This document shows positions 14,915 through 16,207 of a DNA stretch of 36,712 bases, piece by piece. A program made the translations under genes and the position numbers. The notes below the pieces were generated by a model. The model made no database searches. It worked only from the letters and a program-made list of their open reading frames with translations, and was not told the DNA's origin. The stretch covers positions 1 through 36,712 of the forward strand of contig NZ_AUHY01000026.1 of NCBI RefSeq assembly GCF_000423425.1, given 5' to 3'. How positions within the stretch are numbered: the stretch's first letter is position 1; every line of letters begins with the position of its first letter. This DNA is from Meiothermus rufus DSM 22234. GTDB taxonomy: Bacteria > Deinococcota > Deinococci > Deinococcales > Thermaceae.

Positions 14915-15229
14915 ATGAACATTCAGAAGCTCATGAAAGAGGCCCAAAAGGCCCAGAGAAAGGCGGCCGAAGTACAGGAAAGACTCGGCCAGATGACGGT
15001 GGTGGGCAGTGCAGGTGGGGGGCTGGTTGAGGTTACCGCCAACGGACATGGGCAGATTCAGGCGGTTCGGCTCAAGCCCGAAGCAGTGCACCAAGACGAC
15101 CTCGAGGCCCTGGAAGACCTGCTTCTGGCCGCTATTCAGGATGCCCAGCAGAAGGCCCACCAGCTCAGCGAGAAGGAGATGAGCCGTGAACTGGGTGGCA
15201 TTGGTAGTATGCTGGGGAACCTGCTCTAG
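14915..15229 (+). CDS. YbaB/EbfC nucleoid-associated protein
   Basis: The 104-residue protein starts MNIQKLMKEAQKAQ, continues through a helix of alternating charges, and has the conserved core GLVEVTANGHGQIQAVRL (about 36-53), followed by DLEALEDLLLAAIQDA. This is the YbaB/EbfC family of small DNA-binding dimers. A Shine-Dalgarno (GGAGG) lies six bases before the ATG. In most bacteria ybaB sits directly before recR; here the pair is kept but split by about 390 bases of structured non-coding sequence. Confidence 0.94.
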   Translation: MNIQKLMKEAQKAQRKAAEVQERLGQMTVVGSAGGGLVEVTANGHGQIQAVRLKPEAVHQDDLEALEDLLLAAIQDAQQKAHQLSEKEMSRELGGIGSMLGNLL

Positions 15230-15235
15230 AGAAAA

Positions 15236-15608
15236 GAGGGGGTGTGGGGGAGCTATAATCCCCCGGACTTTCCGTCCGTGGGATTGCGCCGCGTGAGGCG
15301 CAATCTGACTCCCCCACGTCCGTCAGAGGCGGACATAGCATGGCGAGTGGCGCATGGGTGGTATGATACCGTTGGGGAGCGGCGCTCCCCGTGCACCTTG
15401 AAACCTGGGGTAGGGGGTTCCACCGGGTAGTCCGGTGGGTAAAACTCCAGACGTAAACTCGTGGCAGAGCCAGAAGCATTGCGCTCGCCTGCCGATACGG
15501 AGTCAAGGTATTGCGTCGCAATGCGATGCTGGGCCCGGACAGGGCCTTCGGGCATAGCCATGCTATGATTCCCGAGAAGCCCCGGACTTCAGTCCGGGGA
15601 GTCGTCAC
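15236..15608 (+). mobile_element. Structured gene-free element, IS200/IS605-derived (MITE-like)
   Basis: No credible gene lies between ybaB and recR (390 bases). The stretch is packed with perfect stem-loops. In order: CCCGGAC-type hairpin 15260-15282; 8-bp stem 15283-15290/15297-15304; 5-bp stem 15318-15322/15330-15334; 7-bp stem 15374-15380/15384-15390; 7-bp stem 15420-15426/15432-15438; 6-bp stem 15510-15515/15517-15522; 6-bp stem 15553-15558/15562-15567; and 9-bp stem CCCCGGACT (15580-15588) with AGTCCGGGG (15591-15599), followed by AGTCGTCAC. First and last hairpins share CCCCGGACTT, and GACTCCCC near the left end is mirrored as GGGGAGTC at the right. The right end is typical of IS605-family ends and of the omega RNA at the 3' end of tnpB. 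Neither tnpA nor tnpB is present, so it would be non-autonomous. Exact ends are estimates. Confidence 0.5.
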
Positions 15609-15619
15609 GCAAGGCTCCT

Positions 15620-16207
15620 ATGCGCTACCCCCATACGCTGCTCAGGCTGGTGCGTGCCCTGGCTACCCTTCCGGGCATTGGGCCTAAAAGTGCCCAGAAG
15701 CTAGGGCTTTTCCTGGTACAAAACCCCCAGGTCTTGGCCGAGTTGCGGCACAGCCTGGAGGCGGCCCAGGCCTTGCACCCCTGTCCTCGCTGTGGCAATC
15801 TGGCTGAGGCCGAGGTGTGCCCTATCTGCGCGGATGATGAGCGGGATACCTCGCTGATTTGCGTGGTCGAGAGTGTTTCCGACCTGATGGCCATCGAGCG
15901 CAGCGGCGAATACCATGGCCTGTACCACGTGTTGGGGGGGGCGCTCAATCCGTTGGAGGGAATTGGCCCCGAAGAGCTCAATCTGGAGGGGCTTTGGGCC
16001 CGCCTCGAGGGGGTGCAGGAGGTTATCCTTGCTACCAGCATGACGGTAGAGGGGGAGGCCACCGCCAGCTACCTGGCAGAATGTTTGCGTCAGCGCCAGA
16101 TTCGCTCGACCCGGCTGGCCTATGGTTTGCCGGTAGGGGGGAGCCTTGAGTACGCCGACGAAGTGACCCTGGCTCGAGCTCTGGAAAATCGCCGAGGATA
16201 CCCGTAG
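15620..16207 (+). CDS. recR: Recombination mediator protein RecR
   Basis: The 195-residue protein has the RecR order of parts: an N-terminal helix-hairpin-helix (LATLPGIGPKSAQKLGLFL, about 15-33), a C4 zinc finger (CPRC and CPIC, 55-70), a Toprim domain starting ICVVESVSDLMAIE, and the C-terminal segment with AYGLPVGGSLEYADEVTL. It acts with RecO and RecF to load RecA at gaps. The ATG follows the right end of the structured element by about a dozen bases; the only Shine-Dalgarno-like sequence is AAGG. Its upstream region therefore appears to have been replaced by the element. Confidence 0.97.
   Translation: MRYPHTLLRLVRALATLPGIGPKSAQKLGLFLVQNPQVLAELRHSLEAAQALHPCPRCGNLAEAEVCPICADDERDTSLICVVESVSDLMAIERSGEYHGLYHVLGGALNPLEGIGPEELNLEGLWARLEGVQEVILATSMTVEGEATASYLAECLRQRQIRSTRLAYGLPVGGSLEYADEVTLARALENRRGYP

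Follow-up and report, generated by a model that had tools for sequence, protein, structure and literature searches.

Cas12 descends from TnpB, whose guide RNA is as a rule firmly joined to the tnpB gene itself. In the case of ISDra2, the RNA used by TnpB (reRNA) combines the tnpB 3' end with the right end of the element and approximately 16 nt of the flank, and TnpB cuts the post-excision site beside the TAM, after which repair restores the transposon (PMC8612924). Derivatives of IS605 that lack a transposase gene, the palindrome-associated transposable elements (PATEs), are already known as well (PMC3119063, PMC7290912). Here, we describe an element with IS200/IS605-type ends that carries a conserved structured domain, named M, between them.

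The window, i.e., the whole stretch of 36,712 nt that was analysed, stems from a Meiothermus-like draft assembly (2.74 Mb, 121 contigs) whose nearest named relative in a recR comparison is M. granaticius. All features of the window are given on the + strand. The element comprises 379 bases (15230-15608) between ybaB/ebfC (14915-15229, TIGR00103) and recR (15620-16207, TIGR00615; ATG at 15620), and no plausible gene is found within it. The earlier note had reported a structured, gene-less stretch at this place, which is borne out: the predicted fold has -193.8 kcal/mol compared with -157.6 +/- 5.7 in dinucleotide shuffles (z = -6.3), and none of 100 shuffles folds as well. The right limit of the reported extent (15236-15608) holds, while the left one has to be moved six bases further left, to 15230. 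Similarly, the reported number of at least eight perfect stem-loops depends on the stem length. It holds for stems of at least 5 bp, of which the element has nine (mononucleotide shuffles, n=200: mean 2.4, maximum 6), and not for stems of at least 6 bp, of which it has six (mean 0.8, maximum 4).

Comparison with related genomes identifies this stretch as an insert. Sixteen other genomes of the genus have a ybaB-recR spacer of 3-89 nt, four more of the family one of 3-93 nt, and the element is missing from the site in all 20 relatives compared. In the source genome the spacer is 390 nt long; thus, a variable spacer was lengthened, rather than a normal spacing removed as had been stated earlier. 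Five copies of about 340-380 bp, the window copy included, are present in the source genome. The four others, of about 342-379 bp, are 79-83% identical to the window copy and scattered over contigs, several partial copies occur in addition, and related copies are found in many Thermaceae. The flanks of 32 copies were compared. Most left flanks read TTAG, where the last three bases (TAG) belonged to the search pattern and the T at -4, present in 30 of the 32, was not forced; the right flank is not duplicated, i.e., there is no target duplication. TTAG, the family consensus, is the presumed TAM. The window copy deviates with CTAG (15226-15229), the TAG of which is the stop codon of ybaB (15227-15229). 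Most copies examined lie at gene ends or in intergenic regions, e.g., at the gcvT/gcvH boundary in one genome (G014). In one copy (G003), the left flank is another repeat. An abundant short Meiothermus repeat family (L246; G003:C152:8985-9137) adjoins one M element and occurs at many other places in G002, G003, G004 and G006. Judged by the empty sites and dispersed copies, the mobility of the element is well supported, and it can be regarded as a mobile insertion.

Both ends belong to the IS200/IS605 type. The left end (15230-15282), beginning with AGAAAAGAGGGGGTGTGGGGGAGCTATAATCCCCCGG, consists of a purine run and two hairpins, GGGGG(AGCTATAAT)CCCCC and CCCCCGGAC-TTTCC-GTCCG. The right end (15580-15608) reads CCCCGGAC-TTCA-GTCCGGGG-AGTCGTCAC, finishes with ...GAAGCCCCGGACTTCAGTCCGGGGAGTCGTCAC and recurs as the right end in IS605 elements of the same genome, so that the earlier assignment of this end to the IS200/IS605 type proves right. 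Both ends occur on tnpB-bearing elements. In the source genome these are C18 (8841-10462), C27, which shares the right end only, and the deleted element C94; others are found in relatives. Between copies and tnpB elements, the right-end hairpin (15580-15599) varies by compensatory changes that give the pairs CCCCGGAC/GTCCGGGG, CCCCGTTC/GAACGGGG, CCTCGGAC/GTCCGAGG and CCCCGCTC/GAGCGGGG, and near-terminal palindromes are present in the element. Behind the left end follows a leader (15283-15367) that resembles the region before tnpA in intact elements (C94, G002T and G003T were compared). It contains a -10-like TATGAT (15362-15367), and most copies have a recurring TANNAT box a few nucleotides ahead of M; a scan for a full sigma-70 promoter gave no match. 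By its sequence, the element is a non-autonomous IS200/IS605 element of the PATE type. The earlier note had named three outcomes as refuting its reading: no similar ends at any tnpA or tnpB element, no other copies, and the same sequence at this site in all relatives. None of them occurred; the ends are shared, copies were found, and the sites of the relatives are empty.

Regarding the proteins, the draft source genome yields only truncated TnpA matches, and several relatives have an intact TnpA. Because of the truncation, the element may no longer be mobile. The TnpB proteins of C18 and C27 are full-length, with NF040570 scores of 337-341 bits (cut-off 100 bits). They match TnpB of ISDra2 (for C27 against structure 8bf8, E is about 2e-56) and keep the motifs GIDLG, HE(D/N)LN and HRDVAA, and thus all three catalytic residues (D/E/D).

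The part of the element that its ends do not explain is the M domain (15372-15510, ~139 nt), which is closed by ACCTTGA/TCAAGGT and sits between the left end with its promoter leader and the omega-RNA-like right end. The earlier note made no mention of it; the region is neither an IS end nor tnpB. Among 14 representative copies, M has a mean identity of 88%, compared with 53% in the preceding 110 nt and 66% in the right-end domain. As M is better conserved than the parts flanking it, this pattern points to selection on M and not merely to recent spread. The core of M (15405-15450; helix P1, loop AGGGGGTT, helix P2, loop GTAAA) is built of two variable helices around invariant loops, in the order P1 (7 bp), loop A(G/U)GGGGUU, P2 (7 bp), loop GUAAA and P1'. 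In 18 distinct cores, 99.6% of the pair cells are standard, a figure that is biased upward since the collection demanded at least 6/7 and at least 5/7 pairs. Of the 14 pairs, 12 covary by double-sided changes, with 60 such cells compared with 14 in shuffles, and none of 500 shuffles is as good. The covariation was also examined with the natural loops, and sliding the pairing destroys it. On the + strand G-U pairs are frequent, with hardly any of the reciprocal A-C cells, which assigns the fold to an RNA of the + strand. M is shown to be under structural selection.

Rfam 15 contains no family that reaches the gathering threshold over the element, and none for M; Acido-Lenti-1, sroE and TB11Cs3H1 were rejected with scores far below threshold. 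None of the 12 tnpA/tnpB elements searched contains the M core, which dismisses M as a remnant of tnpB or tnpA coding sequence and indicates that TnpB has no need of M.

A covariance model of M (CM R1) matches in 18 of 111 Deinococcota genomes, all of them Thermaceae and distributed over four genera, with up to 22 copies in one genome (G075). Nearly all copies are followed by an IS605-type right end, and relatives of the M core occur in IS605-ended elements with other right-end types. In L310 (L310:420-980; G020:C25), located beside an amino-acid-kinase-like gene, a divergent M core precedes a right end that resembles HgcC (RF00062; its 47.3 bits fall slightly short of the threshold of 50 bits), and L311 combines a core relative with a GTGGGAGTGTCAAC-type right end. 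Two viral contigs from IMG/VR (L346:6840-7320 and L354:2040-2490) carry the M core together with non-Thermaceae IS605 right ends. The right end of L354 is of a cyanobacterial type and has a match on a Chroococcidiopsis plasmid, 4 bp downstream of a gene annotated as transposase; for the L346 element, a BLAST search of plasmids and phages gave no match. The viral members were found by the loop sequence and at most three or four loop-adjacent bases of P1, without any pairing requirement. A second model (CM R2) assigned 58-72 bits to the pattern matches in viral contigs that have IS605 ends, compared with 13-22 bits for the seven without. The match L356 was judged by eye to be due to chance, as was the one weak match (27.9 bits) of CM R2 in 50 mixed-phylum genomes, which has neither core nor IS ends. 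L346 and L354 suggest that the distribution of the M core crosses phyla.

Downstream of M, an omega-RNA-like right-end domain (15531-15608) is 84% identical to the tnpB 3' end/right end of C18 and common to tnpB elements. The earlier note had proposed that the element, if transcribed, could supply an omega RNA, guided by the adjacent start region of recR. The proposal fits the anatomy of the element because its 3' ~78 nt are the counterpart of the tnpB-3'-end/right-end segment that TnpB uses in ISDra2, and we infer a guide function from this correspondence. By the architecture of the ISDra2 reRNA, the putative guide would be the host flank at the recR start, GCAAGGCTCCTATGCGCTAC (15609-15628). 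Shorter elements are found in Thermus phage phiLo (MH673673.1), which has three minimal, IS605-ended noncoding elements of about 131-229 nt (around 45561-, 84251+ and 150419-). Two of the three keep the 3' tail of M, and in an M-deleted minimal derivative a TATAAT-like box immediately precedes the omega domain. The phage also has several annotated IS605 OrfB (TnpB) genes, and its minimal elements are possible phage-borne guide-RNA genes.

The best reading, to which we give somewhat better than an even chance, is that the IS605-ended element with M makes a guide RNA usable by TnpB in trans, with M as its 5' part. It draws on the TANNAT box before M, the box of the phiLo derivative, and the retained right end and flank position. 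The element would have kept both ends recognised by TnpA as well as a tnpA-type promoter leader, the tnpA/tnpB body being replaced by M. The empty sites and shared ends show that it entered the locus by insertion, behind the CTAG at the stop codon of ybaB; presumably, a TnpA acted in trans. Transcription would probably run from the leader-internal promoter towards recR and give an RNA of ~235 nt, with M, the omega-RNA 3' domain and a guide from the recR start in this order. By analogy to ISDra2, a TnpB from another locus of the genome could take up this RNA and cut the empty site left by excision, and repair would then restore the element. Candidates for this role are the TnpB proteins of C18 and C27, the elements with the same right end whose presence in this genome the earlier note had left to be checked. 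Speculatively, M would most likely substitute for the tnpB-mRNA part, scaffolding or stabilising the RNA from its 5' side. Counting against this reading, the omega part is less conserved than M (66% compared with 88%), which is odd if TnpB binding is the main constraint; the CTAG at the window copy, the truncated TnpA matches, the tnpB elements without M and the failure to match a full sigma-70 promoter point in the same direction.

The conservation pattern raises the question whether M itself is the functional product, with the IS605 ends as its vehicle only and no guide activity at all. M would then be a selfish or regulatory structured RNA, be it a decoy, an inhibitor of TnpB or TnpA, or an RNA interacting with the host. 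We consider this a less likely, yet serious alternative: the conservation of M greatly exceeds that of the omega domain and the leader, and M occurs together with right ends of different types, but the IS605-type right end follows M in nearly all copies, and phage copies lose M and retain the omega domain. A plain PATE or MITE, i.e., IS605 ends fused into a dead element that is not transcribed and whose stem-loops serve TnpA as single-stranded DNA and have no other role, is improbable to a higher degree. In its favour, fused IS605 ends have been described for PATEs (PMC3119063, PMC7290912), and an intact TnpA was not found in the draft source genome. This explanation accounts for the ends, but not for the internal M domain and its covariation, and it leaves the strand-specific G-U pairs and the conservation across genera unexplained.

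IStrons are a known case of IS605-type elements that carry structured RNA, and a self-splicing or IStron-like insertion comes to mind for this reason. With no intron match in Rfam, and with the copies examined lying mostly outside ORFs, it has very little probability. A noncoding RNA gene resident at the ybaB-recR locus, to which the strong structure alone might lead, has practically none; the 20 relatives with an empty site rule it out, and copies are dispersed elsewhere in the genome. An origin from HEARO/IscB was rejected, too: the source genome has neither an RF02033 nor an RRXRR match, and the HEARO loci of relatives are unlike M. These loci are near-identical in G007, G016, G018, G020 and G008 (L159-L162, L166), with a truncated-looking RRXRR match, and their occurrence in different genera suggests recent transfer.

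Returning to the trans-acting guide with M as its 5' part, M-elements would, if this holds, equip transposons and phages with guides for TnpB proteins that other loci encode. A widespread family of elements without proteins, which retain the guide-RNA end, have gained a strongly conserved RNA domain and reach 22 copies, would amount to natural guides encoded in trans or to parasites of TnpB, and also to a step toward a separated effector and guide as in CRISPR. Our wider proposal is tentative: M could be an undescribed class of structured RNA that spreads between phyla on IS605-ended elements without genes and serves as the 5' domain of omega-type guide RNAs acting in trans. The M fold is specific enough for direct searching and testing.

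What is known already are PATEs and omega RNAs; the fold of M is described in no RNA library (Rfam 15). In Rfam and the open-licence papers searched, no PATE class was found that is built around a conserved RNA domain common to unrelated right-end types; a prior description may exist beyond the open-licence literature. HgcC RNA (RF00062) resembles our elements only in the divergent L310 with its HgcC-like right end; HgcC has no M, and the window element has another right-end type. HEARO, the omega RNA of IscB (RF02033), is likewise a guide-RNA element of the IS605 superfamily and occurs in some Thermaceae, but the window element matches it neither in sequence nor by covariance model, and the source genome has no IscB. 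With the omega RNA of TnpB, or reRNA, of ISDra2, the element shares a 3' domain formed by the right end with its terminal hairpin, followed by the position of a flank-derived guide. It differs in having no tnpB in cis and in a 5' part that is M instead of tnpB 3' coding sequence, and its use by TnpB is putative. Like the PATEs of, e.g., Haloquadratum and Halanaerobium, it is short and transposase-free, has near-terminal palindromes resembling IS605 ends, makes no target duplication and would be moved in trans. The PATEs described consist mainly of fused ends, whereas this element holds a ~139-nt RNA domain of other origin between them.
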